Origin: a virus
Strand: one strand, 5' to 3'
Length of the DNA: 42,769 nt
Virus record (IMG/VR): IMGVR_UViG_3300010970_000159
Span: 1-42,769 of that record
Below, piece after piece: positions 936 through 24,357 of this stretch. How positions within the stretch are numbered: position 1 is the stretch's first letter; every line of letters begins with the position of its first letter. A program made the position numbers and the translations under genes. The notes under the pieces were generated by a model. It saw only the letters and a list, made by a program, of their open reading frames with translations. It did no database searches and was not told the DNA's origin.

Positions 936-1295
936 TTAACTACCATAAATACTTGCAAGTGTTACTCCTGCAGCCGCCACAAGCACCAATCCTGCAACTT
1001 CTCGGCCTTTAAGCTTATTAGCTTCTACCCAGTTTTGGTCTCGCGTTTTTTTAGCTTCATAGATTGCTGCTTTGGAGGCGCCGCTTTTTTTAAGTTCTCT
1101 AATTTTTAGATCATCTTTAGTTCTATTAAGACGATTTCCTTTTGGCCCAATTAGTAGGTTTGGAGCCAGTGCTTGTTTTCTTGCCGCGTCTATACTTTGA
1201 GATCTAGCACTTGGGGTTCTATTGCTTCTTCGCCCCCATTTCATTCCCATTTTTCCATAATGGGCTAGAAATTCTTCTGCTTCATCATGTGTCAT
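936..1295 (-). CDS. HYG-tagged small head-region protein with C-terminal membrane segment
   Basis: 119 residues. Residues 9-22 contain LAHYGKMGMKWGRR, the HYGxxGMKWG motif often seen near the end of head-associated proteins of Gram-positive phages. The middle is basic and probably helical. The last 20 residues or so (AGLVLVAAAGVTLASIYG) form one hydrophobic segment. It lies directly downstream of the large terminase gene and resembles the protein at 3069-3413 in tag, size and C-terminal hydrophobic segment. The combination suggests a virion-packaged or ejected protein, but no function is established. Confidence 0.8.
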   Translation of the reverse strand: MTHDEAEEFLAHYGKMGMKWGRRSNRTPSARSQSIDAARKQALAPNLLIGPKGNRLNRTKDDLKIRELKKSGASKAAIYEAKKTRDQNWVEANKLKGREVAGLVLVAAAGVTLASIYGS

Positions 1296-3068: not shown

Positions 3069-3413
3069 CTATCTTGTTACTCGTTTAATTGTTCGTTTTA
3101 CTTCTGATTCAATAGATCGACCAAGTGCGCTATTTCTAAACGCTAGAACACTATTAATAGTTGTACCTAGAGCTAGAACACCAACAACTATTTTTTGGCC
3201 CTTTGATATACCTTTAGGGTTAAGTTCTCTATACTGTCGTTCAAGTTGCATTCGACCAATTGCTTGTTTCAGTTCAGAATCAGAAAGATGATGCGCACCC
3301 TTTTTACGTAAAACACTAACAGCTACATTTTCAGCTGATCTATTATTTCTACGACCCCATTTCATACCCAATTTACCATAGTGAGCAAGAAAATCTTCAG
3401 TTTTATTATTCAT
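3069..3413 (-). CDS. HYG-tagged head-region protein
   Basis: 114 residues starting with a TAATG overlap on the connector gene and an RBS GAGGAGA. Residues 8-22 hold FLAHYGKLGMKWGRR, almost identical to the tag at 936-1295. A helical stretch (LSDSELKQAIGRMQLERQY) follows, then a hydrophobic segment (IVVGVLALGTTINSVLAF) and a basic C-terminal tail. This family is common next to terminase and head genes in Gram-positive phages. Its role is unknown. The tag plus membrane segment suggests a packaged membrane-active or ejection protein. Confidence 0.85.
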   Translation of the reverse strand: MNNKTEDFLAHYGKLGMKWGRRNNRSAENVAVSVLRKKGAHHLSDSELKQAIGRMQLERQYRELNPKGISKGQKIVVGVLALGTTINSVLAFRNSALGRSIESEVKRTIKRVTR

Positions 3414-6256: not shown

Positions 6257-6434
6257 TCGGTTATGCCTCCCTTTACTACTAGTATTGTTGAATATAAATA
6301 AGGTCTTACCCTACTTTTTACTCCCCCGGGGCATTTTTTGGGGGCCAGGCGATGCAAAGGGGGGGCCTATTTTGCGAGGACCCCCCTCTCCCCTTTAACA
6401 TTTTATTTAGTAATTTAATATAGATTATTATTTT
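6257..6434. other. Intergenic region with GC-rich island, cos or packaging-site candidate
   Basis: 178 bases without a gene. Flanks are very AT-rich, but 6322-6397 is sharply GC-rich, with runs of C5, G4, G5, G7, C6 and C4. The G and C runs can pair into two hairpins (ccccc/ggggg at about 6323-6346, ggggggg/cccccc at about 6359-6386), and the G runs could also form a quadruplex on the plus strand. It lies at the start of the packaging gene cluster. A cohesive-end or terminase recognition site is the best guess. A protein-bound regulatory site is the alternative. Confidence 0.5.
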
Positions 6435-6688: not shown

Positions 6689-9310
6689 CTATCTACTAAG
6701 TGCATCATTAAGCGTACTTGTAGGAACGCCTAATGCATCAGCTATTTCAGATTGGGTGTAGCCTGCAGCAAGCATGTTCTTTGCACGTGCAAGTTTAGAT
6801 GGAATCATAACAGTTGCGCTACGAGGTGTAGCTAACTTCTTAACGTTGTCTAGATCAGTGTTATCAAGAATGTCAGACAGTCGCTTAGTACTAATAGCAC
6901 CAGACTGAATAGCTTGCCATTCTTTATCTGTTATAATTATTCTTTGTTTCTTAGCGCCTGTTCTTTCACGTGCTTGAGCTAGAGCTTGACTTTCTATCTT
7001 CTTCCTTGTATCGCTATCCATTTGAGGATTAGCTTCCTTCTTTGCACGGGTGATGGCGTTTGCAATAAGCTGGGCTTGTCTTTCAAGGGGCTTATTCTTA
7101 ATAGCAATATTCAATTTAGCAGACAGGGAGGATACTTCAGAAGAGTACGTAATCTTAGCAGATGGTGAATATTCTATAGCCTTAGTACTTGAAGATGTTT
7201 TTCTAGCAGCATTAGCTAATGCTTTTAATCTATTAGCGTGGTCTGCATAAAGAGCTTCTCTAGGTGTACCAGAAGATAACTCATATGCATCTTTTGCTTC
7301 TAGCATTCTAGTTGAAGATGTTCTCTTGAATACCGTTTCACCCTTTTTATTAACATAAGTGGCGTTAGTATTAACAAATACTTTTTCACCAGTGTTCTTA
7401 TTAATAGCGCCTCCAAGAGCAGCCGGTCTGGCTTTTCTATCTAGAGGACGGACTTCACGTTTAGCCAAAGAAATAATAGTTGTTGCTCCACCAGTCTTGC
7501 TGCCTTGATACTTGGCTTTTAATTCAGTAATACCATGATCTTTTTCAGACTGCTTCCAGTTGAGTCCCTTTTTTTCAGCATCAATAACAACCATTGAGTG
7601 TCTAACAGCTCTAACAATTTCAGTTGTTGTAGCACCCTTGATAGTCATATCAGTAATTAAGTTGGAAATTTTACCCATTTGAATTTGGGTATTTGCCATC
7701 TTTTTCATTCCATCGTAGCCTCGATACGAAGTGCGAGGGTCAAAGTTTTTCAACGCATCCAAAGCTGGAGTAGTTTTTACTTTTCTATTATTATTAGGAA
7801 TAACTAACACTGTATCGCCATCAAAGTCAGCACCAGAAAGTTGTTCTGCTACTTTAGGATGAATACCGACTGCGTCTATTGCTCGTCCAAGAATTGATTT
7901 AGCTTTTGCATTTCTATTATTAACTGTTAGTTCAGGAATCTCAAATATTCCACCATGAGGGTGGCGAATAAGAACTACTTTCTCACCATCTCTATATTGA
8001 GGAGCATAGATTTCTGTAGTCTTCAAAGATGGTATTGGTAATATAACATGAGAGGCAGTTCTAGGTAATCCCATAGCTTTTAGTTTAACAGCTGAGGAGT
8101 CCATGTCATCAGCAAATGATTCTAATAGTTTCTTTCTAACTGTAGGGTTAGTAAGAGCCATGATTTCATCGAACTCTGCTTTTTTAGATGCAAACGTTAA
8201 TCCCAATTGATCTTTTATTAACTGAGGACTTTGTTTTGAAAGCATTTGAGAAGATAAAGACCTCGACCATTGATACCAGTCACCTTCTTCATTAATAATA
8301 TTCAATGCTCCACGTTGTCCACCAGGTTTAATAGCTGCGCCAAATGGGTTATCTGGATCATCTTTCATTACTTTCAAAGAGTCAAGCTTATTGGGAGCTT
8401 CGGTCTTTGTTTTGTTTGTATTGAAACGAATATCGATGCCTTTTGGAAGATCATTAGCGTAAACAGCCATGCCTTTAAGATAGTGACTACCATCAACAGC
8501 AATACGAACCTGTGCATATCTAGCTTTTCCAAGAGAAAGGTCACTTACGCCAGGACGTAATTCAATAATACCATCTTTAGAAGCACCGCCATTTTCGGCA
8601 TAGTTTATCTCAAGTCGTTTAGAACTAACATTAGTAGGTGCTCTTAGACCAAGAAAACTACGACCATTATCTTCTGACTTCATGTCAAAAGGTTTGATTC
8701 TATCCTGATTTTTATAAACATCGGTATAGGTTGTACCTTTTGGAACAAGAACCTTAACGCTTGTAAACTGATTTTTTGAACCAAGTTGTGGCACTTTAAC
8801 ATACATGACTTGATAACCTTCATCTTTTAGCATAGCAACTGCTGTGCCTAGACGAACTTTACTAATTCCTGCATAGTTTTCTGTACCCGCACCAATATCC
8901 AAATAAGTTGTTTCGTTAACTTTTTCTTTTAATTGGTTAGCAATAGTGGTTGTGATGTCTCGCTTTTCTTTAGCGCCTGGTGCCAATAAAGAACGAACTG
9001 ATGATTCATTCAAACCCATTCTTTGACCGATAGCTACGTTTGAATATCCTTTAGCTTTCAGTTTCTCAGCTTGTGATATTTGAGAGCTGCGAACTTCATC
9101 TTTTGCACGTGAGCGTGCGTTTCTTAATTCTGTTGTTGAAATATCGAAAGACTTGGCTATGTCTAGTTCCGACATTCCCTGTTTTCTAAGTTCATCGACG
9201 GTTGCTAGAAATGTGGTATTTCTTTGATTTGGGGTTTTACCTGAGCCCCAAGGATATCGTCCAGACTTTCTAAGAATACCATAATGCATTAACTCGTCGT
9301 CTTTGATCAT
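6689..9310 (-). CDS. Putative single-subunit DFDGD RNA polymerase with HYG start and flanking HTH segments
   Basis: 873 residues. GIHPKVAEQLSGADFDGD at 482-499 lines up with the beta-prime subunit signature (xLHPLVCxxFNADFDGD), whose three Asp residues hold the catalytic Mg. HPHGGIFEIP at 450-459 lies before it, as expected for the double-psi barrel. YonO of phage SPbeta and QDE-1-like enzymes are single-chain members of this superfamily. The N-terminus has LMHYGILRKSGRYPWGSG (7-24), then two helix-turn-helix-like segments (about 36-70 and 81-112). A third (MLAAGYTQSEIADALG) is at about 846-861. ATG 9310 overlaps the upstream nuclease gene by ATGA. It probably transcribes phage genes. Packaging in the virion is inferred from the HYG start and not shown. 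Confidence 0.8.
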   Translation of the reverse strand: MIKDDELMHYGILRKSGRYPWGSGKTPNQRNTTFLATVDELRKQGMSELDIAKSFDISTTELRNARSRAKDEVRSSQISQAEKLKAKGYSNVAIGQRMGLNESSVRSLLAPGAKEKRDITTTIANQLKEKVNETTYLDIGAGTENYAGISKVRLGTAVAMLKDEGYQVMYVKVPQLGSKNQFTSVKVLVPKGTTYTDVYKNQDRIKPFDMKSEDNGRSFLGLRAPTNVSSKRLEINYAENGGASKDGIIELRPGVSDLSLGKARYAQVRIAVDGSHYLKGMAVYANDLPKGIDIRFNTNKTKTEAPNKLDSLKVMKDDPDNPFGAAIKPGGQRGALNIINEEGDWYQWSRSLSSQMLSKQSPQLIKDQLGLTFASKKAEFDEIMALTNPTVRKKLLESFADDMDSSAVKLKAMGLPRTASHVILPIPSLKTTEIYAPQYRDGEKVVLIRHPHGGIFEIPELTVNNRNAKAKSILGRAIDAVGIHPKVAEQLSGADFDGDTVLVIPNNNRKVKTTPALDALKNFDPRTSYRGYDGMKKMANTQIQMGKISNLITDMTIKGATTTEIVRAVRHSMVVIDAEKKGLNWKQSEKDHGITELKAKYQGSKTGGATTIISLAKREVRPLDRKARPAALGGAINKNTGEKVFVNTNATYVNKKGETVFKRTSSTRMLEAKDAYELSSGTPREALYADHANRLKALANAARKTSSSTKAIEYSPSAKITYSSEVSSLSAKLNIAIKNKPLERQAQLIANAITRAKKEANPQMDSDTRKKIESQALAQARERTGAKKQRIIITDKEWQAIQSGAISTKRLSDILDNTDLDNVKKLATPRSATVMIPSKLARAKNMLAAGYTQSEIADALGVPTSTLNDALSR

Positions 9311-9867
9311 GATGAGGCCTCTGCTTTCAATATCTGAATTTGCTTATCGAATGTTACAATTTTATCCATAATATGAACAATGTCATCATCTTCAGGAATA
9401 TATTCTACAATGTCATCATTTTGATATATGCGAAGTTCAATGTCTAATTCATATGGCTTATAACCATATTCTAAACAAAACATAGCAGCATATACTTCTA
9501 ATTGTTTCATGGATGTAGGAGTAACTCCTGTTTTCAAATCATGGATTCGAAGTGTTTTGTTTCTGAAAGAAATAGCATCTGCTGTGCCAAAACAATTAAT
9601 TGAATAAAAAAGCATCTGCTCTGGTATCATTCGATAACCGATAGCGTCGTTTACATACATGTTAATTGTCTTTTGTGTTCTAGGTAGTTTGATTCCTAGT
9701 TTAATAGCTTGTGATGCAAATTCGTGGAGTTGTGTGCCTTTGAGTGCGGCGAGCGCCGTTTTATAAGAGTTGTCTAGTTTCTCATTTGAGTAATTAACCC
9801 AATGATATTTACTAGCACTCAGAAAAGCGTGCTTACCTTCAAATGCGGAATGTGTGTTGAAGATCAT
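9307..9867 (-). CDS. PD-(D/E)XK nuclease, RecB/Cas4-like
   Basis: 186 residues. The core reads GTADAISFRN, then IHDLKTG and KQLEVYAAMF. This is the Asp ... (D/E)XK ... QxxxY order of RecB/Cas4-type nucleases, with DLK as the metal-binding acid-x-Lys. An HEFAS motif near residue 48 supplies the N-terminal His/Glu region. No four-cysteine iron-sulfur cluster is visible, so it differs from true Cas4. It overlaps the preceding nuclease gene by 29 nt and the RNA polymerase-like gene by 4 nt, indicating one operon. Expected role: 5' or 3' end resection during phage DNA replication or recombination. Confidence 0.82.
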   Translation of the reverse strand: MIFNTHSAFEGKHAFLSASKYHWVNYSNEKLDNSYKTALAALKGTQLHEFASQAIKLGIKLPRTQKTINMYVNDAIGYRMIPEQMLFYSINCFGTADAISFRNKTLRIHDLKTGVTPTSMKQLEVYAAMFCLEYGYKPYELDIELRIYQNDDIVEYIPEDDDIVHIMDKIVTFDKQIQILKAEASS

Positions 9868-10129
9868 CTAAAACTTCCTCTTTATTCTCTGGGCATATGA
9901 ATCTAGCAAAAGACATATCATTTAAAATATCAACATAGTATTCCTGATTAGGTCTTACTGGTGAATTTAATGATGCTTTAACTTCGAGCATTGCCCATTT
10001 GTTTTCGTAAAGGATTAAAATATCAGGAACGCCTTGCATGTATGATGCATCGTTCTTCAAAACAATACAACCATCAAAAATATTTTTTAGTTCTTTGATT
10101 AGTTGTGATTGAAATCTACTTTCTGACAT
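9839..10129 (-). CDS. VRR-NUC domain nuclease
   Basis: 96 residues, a stand-alone VRR-NUC domain. Visible are ESRFQSQLIKEL at the start, GVPDILIL (catalytic Asp), WAMLEVKAS (ExK) and the trailing SPVRPNQEYYVDIL. Such small nucleases act on branched or flapped DNA in phage replication modules. RBS AAAGGAG precedes ATG 10129. It is the first gene after the 380-base noncoding region and is probably expressed with the RecB-like nuclease and the RNA polymerase-like gene. Confidence 0.88.
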   Translation of the reverse strand: MSESRFQSQLIKELKNIFDGCIVLKNDASYMQGVPDILILYENKWAMLEVKASLNSPVRPNQEYYVDILNDMSFARFICPENKEEVLDDLQHTFRI

Positions 10130-10508
10130 AGATCTCTCCTTTTACAAAAATATAGTAAATGTTTAAATACACATTCTACTCCTTCTATTATAGCCCATGT
10201 TTAGTTTGCGTGTGTAAATACCCACTTCTTGTGTCAAAACAATTTTGTGTCAAAACTCTTTATATATACTTATTTATTCTTTATAAAGTTTTAGGTATAT
10301 ATAGTGGGTTTTTGTCCACAAGATATGGCGTCCTTAGTGTTTAAGCCACTTTCACTACCACAAACATGTGGCAAAACGTGGACAAAAGTGTTTTTAAAAG
10401 TGGGCAGATTCCCATAGATATGACCATCACTACTAAAAAGTGTGTACAAAAGCGCCACATTTTTTTTCTGAAAATGGGTAAGTGGTCATTTAGTAAAGGT
10501 GTGTACTT
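10130..10508. other. Noncoding repeat-rich region, replication origin or promoter candidate
   Basis: About 380 very AT-rich bases between the helicase and nuclease genes. Direct repeats: ttgtgtcaaaac at 10229-10240 and 10245-10256 (16-bp period). On the minus strand each contains TTGACA. Inverted repeats: ttttgtccac 10310-10319 with gtggacaaaa 10378-10387, and ccaca 10358-10362 with tgtgg 10367-10371. gtgtgtac occurs twice between 10430 and 10510. Iteron-like repeats next to replication genes fit an origin; they also fit a regulated promoter. No open frame on either strand looks real. Confidence 0.5.
10187..10218 (-). promoter_or_regulatory. Possible promoter for the nuclease-RNA polymerase operon
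   Basis: A perfect TATAAT on the minus strand (plus 10187-10192) lies about 58 bases upstream of the start at 10129. The nearest -35-like box, TTTACA (plus 10213-10218), is 20 bases away, which is too far for an ideal promoter, so the call is weak. Confidence 0.35.
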
Positions 10509-18702: not shown

Positions 18703-19605
18703 TTAGATCTTATCGTAGATTATGCCATCAACGTTAAAATCTAGAAGGATTGAAGATTCTAACCCATTAACAAACATGTGGCTTCCTTGACTATCAAAAT
18801 TATAAATTCCAAAGTCTACAAAGTTATCTCCCTCTTTAGAAATAACCCAACCAACAACCTGGCCAGCCTGTGTTCGAGGAACGCCAATCATATCATAAAC
18901 CTCGTTTAGAAATACGTGCCCACGAGACTTAAGCAAGTCGTTAGCATAGTTCTGCTGAGCCTTAAGAAATAGCAAGTTGTATTCTGGCGTTTTGCTCCAG
19001 TTAGAAGATAACTCATCAAAGAATTTGGCATATGGGGAGTAACCGATTGGATCAAGCGTTGTTACTTTCTTTGTCTTACCGTTCTCGTCCGTAATCTCTG
19101 ATACTTGACTCCCAAGACGAAGATCTTGTTCTTTCTTTTCGCCAATCAAATCGATTACTCGCTTACGATATTCTACAAAGCTAGTTTCTAAAGCTTTATA
19201 TGCCGCAGCAATGGCTACAGTTCGGCGATGCATAATTCCATGAGCTGCAATGATACAAGCAATAGAACTAATACCAAGTGTAATTGTTGGGCCGTAGATC
19301 TTAGATACTTCAACTGCGCCATGCACATAAATCTTAGCTACTGCTTTGGTATGTTCTTTCTTGTTATATGAACCAGTATCGAGAATTTCTTGTTCTGCGC
19401 TATAGTTAGCATTTGCTTTCTCTTCTCGAATTTGCTCAACGATTGGGTGCAACTTAAGCGTTGCTCGGCTAGCAAGAACTGTAGTTCCTACCATGCCAGC
19501 AATACCAACCGTTGTTAGAATCTCTGGACTATATTTCTTCAGAACGAGTCCGCTACGACCAAGTAAATTTGCACCTGAGTTTTTTAGAGTGCTTAGATTA
19601 AACAT
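18703..19605 (-). CDS. DUF6353-like membrane protein, copy 1
   Basis: 300 residues. Two hydrophobic segments are visible: EILTTVGIAGMVGTTVLASR (about 29-48) and a longer one at about 98-120 containing GISSIACIIAAHGIMHRR. Then come the conserved EYRKRVIDLIGEKKEQDLR, YNDLLK-like helices, and a C-terminal domain with NEVYDMIGVPRTQAGQVVGW and DFNVDGIIYDKI. It is a paralogue of the 253-residue protein at 22721-23482. The family recurs in Gram-positive phages; its role is unknown, perhaps membrane remodelling or superinfection exclusion. RBS AGAAAGG. Confidence 0.82.
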   Translation of the reverse strand: MFNLSTLKNSGANLLGRSGLVLKKYSPEILTTVGIAGMVGTTVLASRATLKLHPIVEQIREEKANANYSAEQEILDTGSYNKKEHTKAVAKIYVHGAVEVSKIYGPTITLGISSIACIIAAHGIMHRRTVAIAAAYKALETSFVEYRKRVIDLIGEKKEQDLRLGSQVSEITDENGKTKKVTTLDPIGYSPYAKFFDELSSNWSKTPEYNLLFLKAQQNYANDLLKSRGHVFLNEVYDMIGVPRTQAGQVVGWVISKEGDNFVDFGIYNFDSQGSHMFVNGLESSILLDFNVDGIIYDKI

Positions 19606-20636: not shown

Positions 20637-20665
20637 GCTCATTATAAGCTTTGTTTTTCTTGCGA
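20637..20665 (-). promoter_or_regulatory. Promoter-like repeat, copy A
   Basis: On the minus strand TCGCAA, 13 bases, TATAAT, then GAGC. It is the most diverged of four copies but keeps the exact 13-base spacing and the AAAAACAA core. It overlaps the last codons of the gene at 20642-20857 and lies 30 bases from ATG 20611. Confidence 0.6.
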
Positions 20666-20857: not shown

Positions 20858-21117
20858 TGTAGCTCTCCTTTCAAGAGAATATAGTAGGGCGCCTGATGGC
20901 AGGTCGTTTAAAAATGAGCTCGACCAGAATTTTATTCTATGGGGGATAGAGTGGGGTTTAAAATTCTTGAGCTATTTCCCTTAAATTGCGCGGAAAGTAT
21001 TCAACAGTGTGCGTAAAATACTTTCCGCTGTGGACGCAATAATTGTCGTTTAAAGATGAGCTGCGCGCGTACTTAGAATGGCTGCTCTCTTACGCGGATG
21101 GCAAACTTCCATTTAAT
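20858..21117 (-). promoter_or_regulatory. Structured noncoding region with inverted and direct repeats
   Basis: About 260 bases without a credible gene. Direct repeat: gtcgtttaaaaatgagct (20903-20920) and gtcgtttaaagatgagct (21045-21062), 17 of 18 identical. Inverted repeats: gcggaaagtatt (20990-21001) with aatactttccgc (21017-21028), which can be extended by attgcg (20985-20990) with cgcaat (21035-21040); ggtcg with cgacc around the first direct repeat; and cgcgta (21066-21071) with tacgcg (21091-21096). No U-run follows the main hairpin. A control region, small RNA or origin are all possible. Confidence 0.55.
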
Positions 21118-22172: not shown

Positions 22173-22198
22173 AGTGTTCCTTTCAGATGTGACGGGAT

Positions 22199-22226
22199 GT
22201 CATTATACGCGTTGTTTTTTTCGCGA
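22199..22226 (-). promoter_or_regulatory. Promoter-like repeat, copy B
   Basis: On the minus strand TCGCGA, 13 bases (AAAAAACAACGCG), TATAAT, GAC. It lies 30 bases upstream of ATG 22172. No TTGACA-like box occurs at the normal distance, so it is not a typical sigma-70 site. Confidence 0.65.
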
Positions 22227-22232
22227 GTGATA

Positions 22233-22721
22233 TTACTGGTACCAAACATAATTATAAGTGTCTGGTTTTATTCCGTTATCTTCTGGCCAATCTAAATTAT
22301 GATACCAATCGTAATGTTTGTATAGAAGCGCGGTTCTATGACTATTCACTAGATTAGTATATAATTCGAGGTCGTTCATCCAATAAGGAAAATCTGATGT
22401 AAATATAAGACCTTTTACTTGAGCACACTCCATAGTGTATTGTGTTTTTTCAAGTATAGTAGTTTTATATCCTCGAGCTATCCATTCTTCGGTCATTGCT
22501 TTTATATATAAATATAATGTTACTTCGTGACCTCTCCACATTTTAACAGCTGGATGGTTATACCATCCTTTTGGTTTTCTATAATTCCCATCTGGGTCTA
22601 TAGCTAGATTAGTCATCATAATTTGCCAAGCTTCTAAAGCCTGCTTATTTAAACGGAGCTTATCTAAAGACTTAGCTGTTTCTGCAAAGTTGGTTGATGG
22701 ATAAGTAAGAAAGGTTTGCAT
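22233..22721 (-). CDS. Pyrimidine-dimer DNA glycosylase-like protein
   Basis: 162 residues. The start MQTFLTYPSTNFAETAKSLD, then KLRLNKQALEAWQIM, GWYNHPAVKMWRGHE, and NSHRTALLYKH ... YVWYQ matches the MSMEG/T4 endonuclease V-like family annotated as pyrimidine-dimer DNA glycosylase. These remove UV-damaged bases. The conserved NHPAVKMWRGHE is the best evidence. The start codon overlaps the stop of the DUF6353-like gene, with no clear independent promoter. It would protect phage DNA from light damage, if active. Confidence 0.8.
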   Translation of the reverse strand: MQTFLTYPSTNFAETAKSLDKLRLNKQALEAWQIMMTNLAIDPDGNYRKPKGWYNHPAVKMWRGHEVTLYLYIKAMTEEWIARGYKTTILEKTQYTMECAQVKGLIFTSDFPYWMNDLELYTNLVNSHRTALLYKHYDWYHNLDWPEDNGIKPDTYNYVWYQ

Positions 22722-23482
22722 TATCCCATCTTATAGTAATTTGGTTTTAGATTCAATTGATATTCGATACACAGACACGGTCTACCATCGTCAGCCAAGT
22801 GTGAAGTGAATTCTATATCTAGAAGTTGATCGAGATTCCATCCAGCTTCTTCTCCGAACTGAGTCCTACTCAAACCTATTAGGTTATAGAAATCATTATG
22901 ACTAGCATAGTTGTTATTTAGAATTTGTGCATTAATATCGTTTTGTGCTCGGCGAAGAGTTTCTATGTCTGATTTAAAATATCTACCTGTAAAACTATCA
23001 TAACAAAGTTGTTCACCTAAACCAGTAATATGCACTTCGGCGAGCGCCATAGGAGCTGAAGCTATACTGTCTTTTGTTATTTCTTCACGAACTTTTCGTT
23101 CTTTATTTTCACCATGAATCTCACGAACTTTTGCTTGATATTCGCGTAGCATAGTTTCGGTTAAAGAATAGATACTAACCAATGCTGCATTTTTTCTCAT
23201 GTTGATAGCTTGCGCGCCAATGATACACGCAATAGTAAATACTCCAGAGACAGTAGCTGGAGTATAATCTTTCCATACCACAACTACTGTCTCTTTTATA
23301 TTTGGTTCTCTATTATTTGATTCCGCATCCCATTTAACTTTAGAAAGTTTATCTAATGCTTTTGGTGTAGCTCTAACAGCTAAGACCGTTGTCGATACAA
23401 CACCTGCAACGGACAAGTATGTTAGAATCAAAGGCGAATTATCAACCACCAACATTTTAAATTTTTTAAAAAACTCATTCAT
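22721..23482 (-). CDS. DUF6353-like membrane protein, copy 2
   Basis: 253 residues. Membrane segments are LILTYLSVAGVVSTTVLAVRA (about 17-37) and TVSGVFTIACIIGAQAINMR. Then come SIYSLTETMLREYQAKVREIHGENKE-type helices and a C-terminal domain with CYDSFTGRYFKSDIETLRRA and NDFYNLIGLSRTQFGEEAGW. It shares segment order and several blocks with copy 1 at 18703-19605. Its ATG overlaps the 63-residue gene by 8 nt. Function unknown. Confidence 0.82.
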   Translation of the reverse strand: MNEFFKKFKMLVVDNSPLILTYLSVAGVVSTTVLAVRATPKALDKLSKVKWDAESNNREPNIKETVVVVWKDYTPATVSGVFTIACIIGAQAINMRKNAALVSIYSLTETMLREYQAKVREIHGENKERKVREEITKDSIASAPMALAEVHITGLGEQLCYDSFTGRYFKSDIETLRRAQNDINAQILNNNYASHNDFYNLIGLSRTQFGEEAGWNLDQLLDIEFTSHLADDGRPCLCIEYQLNLKPNYYKMG

Positions 23483-23886: not shown

Positions 23887-23918
23887 AATATTTTCCTTTC
23901 ATATAAATAACGACGGGT

Positions 23919-23946
23919 GTCACTATAGGCGTTGTTTTTTTCGCGA
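23919..23946 (-). promoter_or_regulatory. Promoter-like repeat, copy C
   Basis: On the minus strand TCGCGA, 13 bases (AAAAAACAACGCC), TATAGT, GACACC. It follows a terminator directly, so a new transcript must start here to express the 51-residue gene. Confidence 0.65.
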
Positions 23947-24309: not shown

Positions 24310-24329
24310 ATTTTCCTTTCAAGAGTGGT

Positions 24330-24357
24330 GTCATTATAAGCGTTGTTTTTATCGCGA
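24330..24357 (-). promoter_or_regulatory. Promoter-like repeat, copy D
   Basis: On the minus strand TCGCGA, 13 bases (TAAAAACAACGCT), TATAAT, GACACC, 23 bases before ATG 24309. It starts three bases after the stop of the holin gene at 24361. Confidence 0.65.

Follow-up and report, generated by a model that had tools for sequence, protein, structure and literature searches.

A tagged single-chain phage RNA polymerase and its linked candidate promoter: possible delivery in the virion for early transcription

The locus described here raises the question whether a phage may bring along its own RNA polymerase to transcribe its first genes. It lies in the virus record IMGVR_UViG_3300010970_000159 of IMG/VR, of which positions 1 to 42,769 (42,769 nucleotides, in the following called the window) were analysed. 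A sequence-only reading had proposed that an open reading frame at 6689-9310 encodes a single-subunit RNA polymerase with helix-turn-helix (HTH) segments at both ends and an HYG start which may target it to the virion. The frame is real, and the interpretation is borne out in part. It lies on the minus strand, starts with ATG and encodes 873 amino acids, and it is not a chance frame because the whole chain (residues 2-872 of 873) matches the phrog_4291 profile with E 0 and there are matches in 250 phage records. The motifs were found as claimed, DFDGD at residues 495-499 within IHPKVAEQLSGADFDGD, the HPHGGIFEIP block at residues 450-459 and HYG at residues 9-11 inside ELMHYGILRKSGRYPWGSG. We favour the reading that this polymerase is delivered by the virion and transcribes the early genes from its own promoters, and give it a probability of roughly 0.65. 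The gene and its parts are as follows (pLDDT, predicted local distance difference test).

6689-9310, minus strand: predicted single-chain two-barrel RNA polymerase, 873 amino acids (phrog_4291 E 0; AlphaFold2 pLDDT 88.6; QDE-1 Z 16.1)
9239-9301, minus strand: N-terminal HYG tag, residues 4-24 (DDELMHYGILRKSGRYPWGSG), predicted disordered (homolog invariance; pLDDT <50)
8981-9211, minus strand: two N-terminal HTH-like units, residues 34-110 (phrog_664/3855; AlphaFold2 helices)
8276-8638, minus strand: region aligning with the first double-psi barrel (DPBB-B like), with approximate limits at residues about 225-345 (QDE-1 alignment from residue 226)
7781-8083, minus strand: catalytic double-psi barrel (DPBB-A like), with approximate limits at residues about 410-510 (Pol II alignment; SGADFDGD)
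7814-7828, minus strand: DFDGD catalytic triad, residues 495-499 (invariant in homologs)
6692-6802, minus strand: C-terminal HTH, sigma region 4-like, residues 837-873 (HTH_23, Sigma70_r4_2)

An AlphaFold2 model was built with 95 relatives. Its top matches in Foldseek were QDE-1 (E 2e-8) and the polymerases of phages P74-26 and P23-45 (E 3e-7 to 1e-6; 3e-7 for P74-26 gp62). A second structure aligner gave Z 16.1 over 375 residues at 14% identity for QDE-1, Z 13.3 for P74-26 gp62 and Z 12.9 for P23-45 gp64. Residues 683-1196 of QDE-1 align with residues 226-711 of the predicted model, both barrels included, which bears out the proposed single-chain two-barrel architecture; the model shows the second barrel, not one barrel alone, in the structure check that had been suggested. 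Residues from about 410 to 608 align with the largest subunit of Pol II. In the first-barrel region K279 and K300 are invariant in 13 homologs, and SGADFDGD/DFDGD is invariant in 13 unbiased homologs and in 95 in total. By structure, QDE-1/RDR2 and the P23-45/P74-26 polymerases are the nearest solved relatives. A sequence search of the PDB with the polymerase alone gave nothing; the 95-sequence profile hit only HTH fragments and, around DFDGD, the tape-measure protein chain 8h2n at chance level. YonO, the single-chain polymerase of the SPbeta prophage, also has DFDGD; sequence homology to it was not detectable in an hhalign comparison of the 95 homologs with YonO alone, where 19 unrelated columns aligned at E 0.097. 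The protein is almost certainly an RNA polymerase, and would act as a DNA-dependent, single-chain two-barrel enzyme.

Enzymes of this class are known, and databases already list the family, whose members are named 'RNA-dependent RNA polymerase' or, in many actinophage records, 'helix-turn-helix DNA-binding protein'. A tblastn search with the polymerase hit 250 of 50,697 phage records (0.5%), 249 of them with at least 80% query coverage. These homologs of the phrog_4291 family are full-length and 38-58% identical, with hosts chiefly in Arthrobacter, Gordonia and Streptomyces, but also in Lactococcus, Rhodococcus, Curtobacterium and Faecalibacterium. Among the records seen, none attaches a promoter, a tag or a virion role to the family, apart from the label 'structural protein' in Lactococcus phage 1706. 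Relatives were also present at 139 loci of bacterial genome assemblies; the 80 kept are mostly from gut Clostridia, e.g. Lachnospiraceae, and many lie on long contigs, which suggests prophages. Irregular genes occur as well. Record G033 (that of locus L057), with six DUF7211 matches, contains near a contig end a mere polymerase fragment (50568-50840, profile positions 538-635) and its gene is maybe interrupted or split. In four records (G040, G049, G051, G062) the polymerase match passes through one in-frame TAG each, which may be confined to the 3' end.

A candidate for the promoter was first spotted in the intergenic gaps of the window. Here and in most relatives a 29-bp motif, TCGC-N7-ACA-N5-TATAATGAGA, lies on the coding strand ahead of early genes. 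Three exact 28-bp copies of CGCGANAAAAACAACGCNTATARTGACA precede early genes in the window, with 0 expected by chance. Scored over the 17 fixed positions of the motif, the copies in the window are as follows (SD, Shine-Dalgarno sequence).

24329-24357, minus strand: candidate early promoter, 16/17
23918-23946, minus strand: candidate early promoter just past a hairpin and T-run, followed by SD and ATG, 15/17
22198-22226, minus strand: candidate early promoter, 16/17
20637-20665, minus strand: candidate early promoter, 16/17
10183-10211, minus strand: weak motif copy ahead of the nuclease/exonuclease/polymerase operon, 13/17

When gaps were compared within relatives, the same architecture was recovered independently in several phages. 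Most relatives have about 5-20 copies per genome (Mudcat has 7); nearly all lie on the coding strand, and most have a ribosome site and a start codon after them. Homologs possess stronger copies ahead of the same operon, which places them about 860-1100 nt 5' of the polymerase tag. Within 3 kb upstream of the polymerase, 38 of 149 loci have a copy with at least 14/17 on the coding strand, and 0 of 149 have one on the other strand. In the divergent members (1706, FP_oengus, G007, G017, G018, G024) copies are few or variant, and in SPbeta (70 kb searched) there was none. The logo of 429 unique instances contains conserved positions outside those used for selection, e.g. CCCC 3' of the motif. A sigma-70 scan of the early region gave sites no commoner than in shuffles.

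The motif is closely linked to the enzyme. When viral contigs were collected by the motif alone, 23 of the 24 with a length of at least 40 kb turned out to encode the polymerase, a large contrast to the 250 of 50,697 phage records found by tblastn. The one contig without it, G063, holds 17 copies of the motif and may end short of the polymerase gene. With one spacer changed by 1 bp the collection yielded 0 hits, compared to at least 120 with the true spacing. The motif is very probably the promoter of this polymerase, both its promoter role and the cognate pairing being inferred from sequence.

How the enzyme might read this motif is suggested by its two ends, where the HTH-like segments of the sequence-only reading were recovered by profile matches. 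At the C-terminus residues 842-873 match HTH_23 (E 3e-8) and Sigma70_r4_2 (E 1e-7), and TIGR02937 (sigma70-ECF) gave E 7e-5, below the model cut-off. At the N-terminus residues 24-124 match phrog_664 'DNA binding protein' (E 6e-11) and the HTH family phrog_3855 (E 5e-10), with predicted helices at 34-43, 48-54, 59-86, 91-98 and 102-109. Residues 29-226 folded separately gave weak HTH/winged-helix matches (Z at most 7.7); we therefore claim no specific DNA-binding family for the N-terminus. With HTH segments at both ends and a promoter-like motif that lacks a -35 box and co-occurs with the enzyme, promoter recognition built into the polymerase chain is plausible; the reading of the motif by these segments is putative.

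The HYG start belongs to a tag which, with the rest of the first 30 residues, is predicted to be disordered. Residues H9, G11, S16, G17, R18, Y19, G22, S23 and G24 are invariant in the 13 homologs, which were found without using the tag motif, and the tag is present in 76 of 79 homologs selected from genome assemblies by the catalytic LSGADFDG. The 95-sequence alignment was left out of this evidence because the tag had served to select most of its members. A scan of viral contigs for HYG..SGRYPWGSG retrieved essentially this polymerase only: 127 of the 139 frames contain DFDGD, and most others are cut at contig ends. A sister motif, HYG..GMKWG, corresponds to the Pfam family DUF7211 (PF23847), a unit of 25 amino acids (found in 49 of 49 tagged proteins of one set and 136 of 138 of another), and lies within 60 residues of the N-terminus in 182 of 221 cases. 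Both forms are alike ahead of HYG, with an acidic residue at -4 and Leu at -2 (92 and 86%), although these positions were absent from both search patterns. The profile overlap between the acidic-x-L-x-HYG head and DUF7211 is 0.747, a value reached in 0 of 719 column permutations and higher than at every other site of the polymerase. The two forms share this head and a later Trp-Gly, but differ in GMKWGVRR for DUF7211 and SGRYPWGSG for the polymerase. They also occur together: DUF7211 was found in 25 of 29 long contigs bearing the polymerase, and among DUF7211-selected contigs of at least 40 kb the polymerase was present in 10 of 12 and a fragment in 1 more.

Many phage proteins have the DUF7211 tag, and their genes lie near head genes, around the terminase (TerL) and the portal. 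In the window there are two.

3069-3413, minus strand: DUF7211-tagged protein (EDFLAHYGKLGMKWGRR), adjoining the terminase (PF23847 E 2e-9)
936-1295, minus strand: DUF7211-tagged protein (EEFLAHYGKMGMKWGRR), on the opposite side of the terminase (PF23847, genome search, E 1.6e-11)

ReqiPepy6 has eight such genes between the structural gene ahead of the terminase and the portal gene, and tagged genes near the terminase are also found in Mudcat, Rickmore, RosaAsantewaa, Eevee, P118, FP_oengus and 1706. Some DUF7211-tagged proteins (loci L009-L252) contain domains similar to 2H phosphoesterases, GNAT, papain-fold glutamine deamidases or barstar, and these enzyme-like proteins are possible injected effectors. 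In Lactococcus phage 1706 (Garneau et al. 2008, as cited in PMC4155818) the polymerase homolog orf75, 39% identical and with the tag HYGTKRHSGRYPWGSG, is annotated 'structural protein', and so is orf7, which has two tags. For a virion role we take this annotation as support, not proof. Papers on phages of Arthrobacter, Streptomyces (Scarif) and Thermobifida (P318) contained no virion data on the polymerase family. Together, the near-universal tag, the DUF7211-tagged neighbours of head genes and the 1706 label lend indirect support to the proposal that the HYG start targets the enzyme to the virion, and the polymerase is probably carried there. Just short of even odds, in our view, is the wider idea that both HYG tags, that of the polymerase and DUF7211, act as a general signal for head packaging and ejection in a broad set of phages infecting Gram-positive bacteria, delivering a polymerase with its own promoters as well as effectors (2H phosphoesterase-, GNAT-, papain-fold deamidase- and barstar-like).

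The favoured reading, a virion-delivered polymerase, builds on what was observed by computation: the fold with its catalytic motif, the near-universal tag, the repeated motif before early genes and the co-occurrence of enzyme with both motif and tag. The polymerase would be packaged through its N-terminal HYG tag, would enter the cell along with the phage DNA and would switch on the first phage genes without the host polymerase. Its own HTH segments, the C-terminal one being sigma region 4-like, would recognise the TCGC-N7-ACA-N5-TATAATGAGA promoters, and the injected enzyme would transcribe the early genes. By also reading its own operon it would amplify itself and supply fresh enzyme for the next virions. 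Should its promoters indeed precede the earliest genes, the enzyme would be needed from the start of infection, a need that virion delivery would solve, as it does for N4 and for the tape-measure-fused polymerase of P23-45 (PMC10770324).

Alternatively it might be that the polymerase is a non-virion enzyme, made after infection for middle or late genes, with another role for the tag. This would suit the position of its gene at the end of the replication module and ahead of the late genes, the P23-45/P74-26 non-virion polymerases as nearest phage structures (PMC10770324) and the motif copy preceding the polymerase's own operon. However, the motif copies lie mainly before early small genes that would have to be read before new enzyme exists, and the near-universal tag and the structural annotation of the 1706 homolog speak for a virion protein; we consider this alternative unlikely. 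The TATAAT within the motif also fits the -10 box of host sigma-A, so that the motif could be a host promoter kept by descent, the promoter of the polymerase being unrelated to it. Yet the 429 instances show no conserved -35 hexamer (16-18 bp before TATAAT in sigma-70/A promoters), and the TCGC and ACA parts recur with their exact spacing in phages that infect Streptomyces, Rhodococcus and Arthrobacter and in many metagenomic contigs. Considering also the enzyme in 23 of the 24 motif-selected contigs, a sigma-A promoter appears quite improbable. An RNA-dependent RNA polymerase, as the database names have it, is hardly credible: QDE-1/RDR2 are the closest fold and PF05183 (RdRP, the RNA-dependent RNA polymerase family) matches weakly (E 1e-3, below cut-off), but by the titles of 7y7s and 7y7t even QDE-1 works on DNA templates, and the HTH units and the linked DNA promoter motif point to DNA as well.

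Several further points weigh against virion delivery from own promoters. Along with the -10 likeness just mentioned, phage 1706 has one weak motif copy and FP_oengus none that is convincing, and G035, a record negative for the polymerase, contains weak variant copies. The co-occurrence counts are not independent trials because the phages bearing the polymerase are related. The Pfam model of DUF7211 does not match the polymerase at E up to 1, the tag head alone being common to both. As for 1706, the 'structural protein' labels come from a GenBank record that states no method, and the untagged early-region orf62 and orf71 bear such a label too, so it may have been carried over.

Compared to known systems, QDE-1/RDR2 of RNA silencing are the best structural match over both barrels at low identity and, to our knowledge, have no HYG tag. 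P23-45 gp64 and gp96 and P74-26 gp62 are single-chain two-barrel phage enzymes, too. P23-45 pairs each polymerase with its own promoter motif; gp64 serves early and middle genes and is absent from virions, while the virion polymerase gp96 is a tape-measure fusion (PMC10770324), where in the present family a short N-terminal tag would be used for delivery. YonO differs as a reader of late genes and its promoter sequence was left to determine (PMC5467207). In the open-access literature we found no paper on the promoter, HYG tag, DUF7211 or virion role of the polymerase family.

Two nuclease genes precede the polymerase gene in its operon.

9839-10129, minus strand: VRR-Nuc-like endonuclease gene, opening the operon (VRR_NUC weak; phrog_93 E 2e-16)
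9307-9867, minus strand: exonuclease gene (phrog_3953 E 1e-79)

The order exonuclease-polymerase is also found in Streptomyces phage RosaAsantewaa and Arthrobacter phage Mudcat. Ahead of the operon, the 379-bp non-coding stretch 10130-10508, which holds the weak motif copy, contains repeated TTTTGACACAA and CACTTTT-like units and looks like a regulatory region or origin. Shortly past the polymerase gene there is a gap rich in G/C runs (6257-6434; GGGGGG...CCCCCCC...CCCCGGGGG) in a genome of 38% GC. The early region contains two phrog_2152 paralogs (18703-19605 and 22721-23482). In the gap 20858-21117, units like GAGCTCATnTTTAAACGAC and of the form GGAAAGTATT...AATACTTTCC are repeated, possibly a structured RNA or operator. 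In the early region of one relative (L268, G007) near-identical terminator hairpins (GGAGTTCGTATCTTAAATGGTACGGACTC and T-run) are repeated.

The family described here occurs in a large group of easily grown laboratory phages (of Arthrobacter, Gordonia, Streptomyces, Rhodococcus and Lactococcus) and has a sharply defined candidate promoter, which makes promoter choice by single-chain two-barrel polymerases directly testable. A packaging role of the tag, if real, would also account for a widespread uncharacterised Pfam family and would offer a route to load proteins into phage heads.
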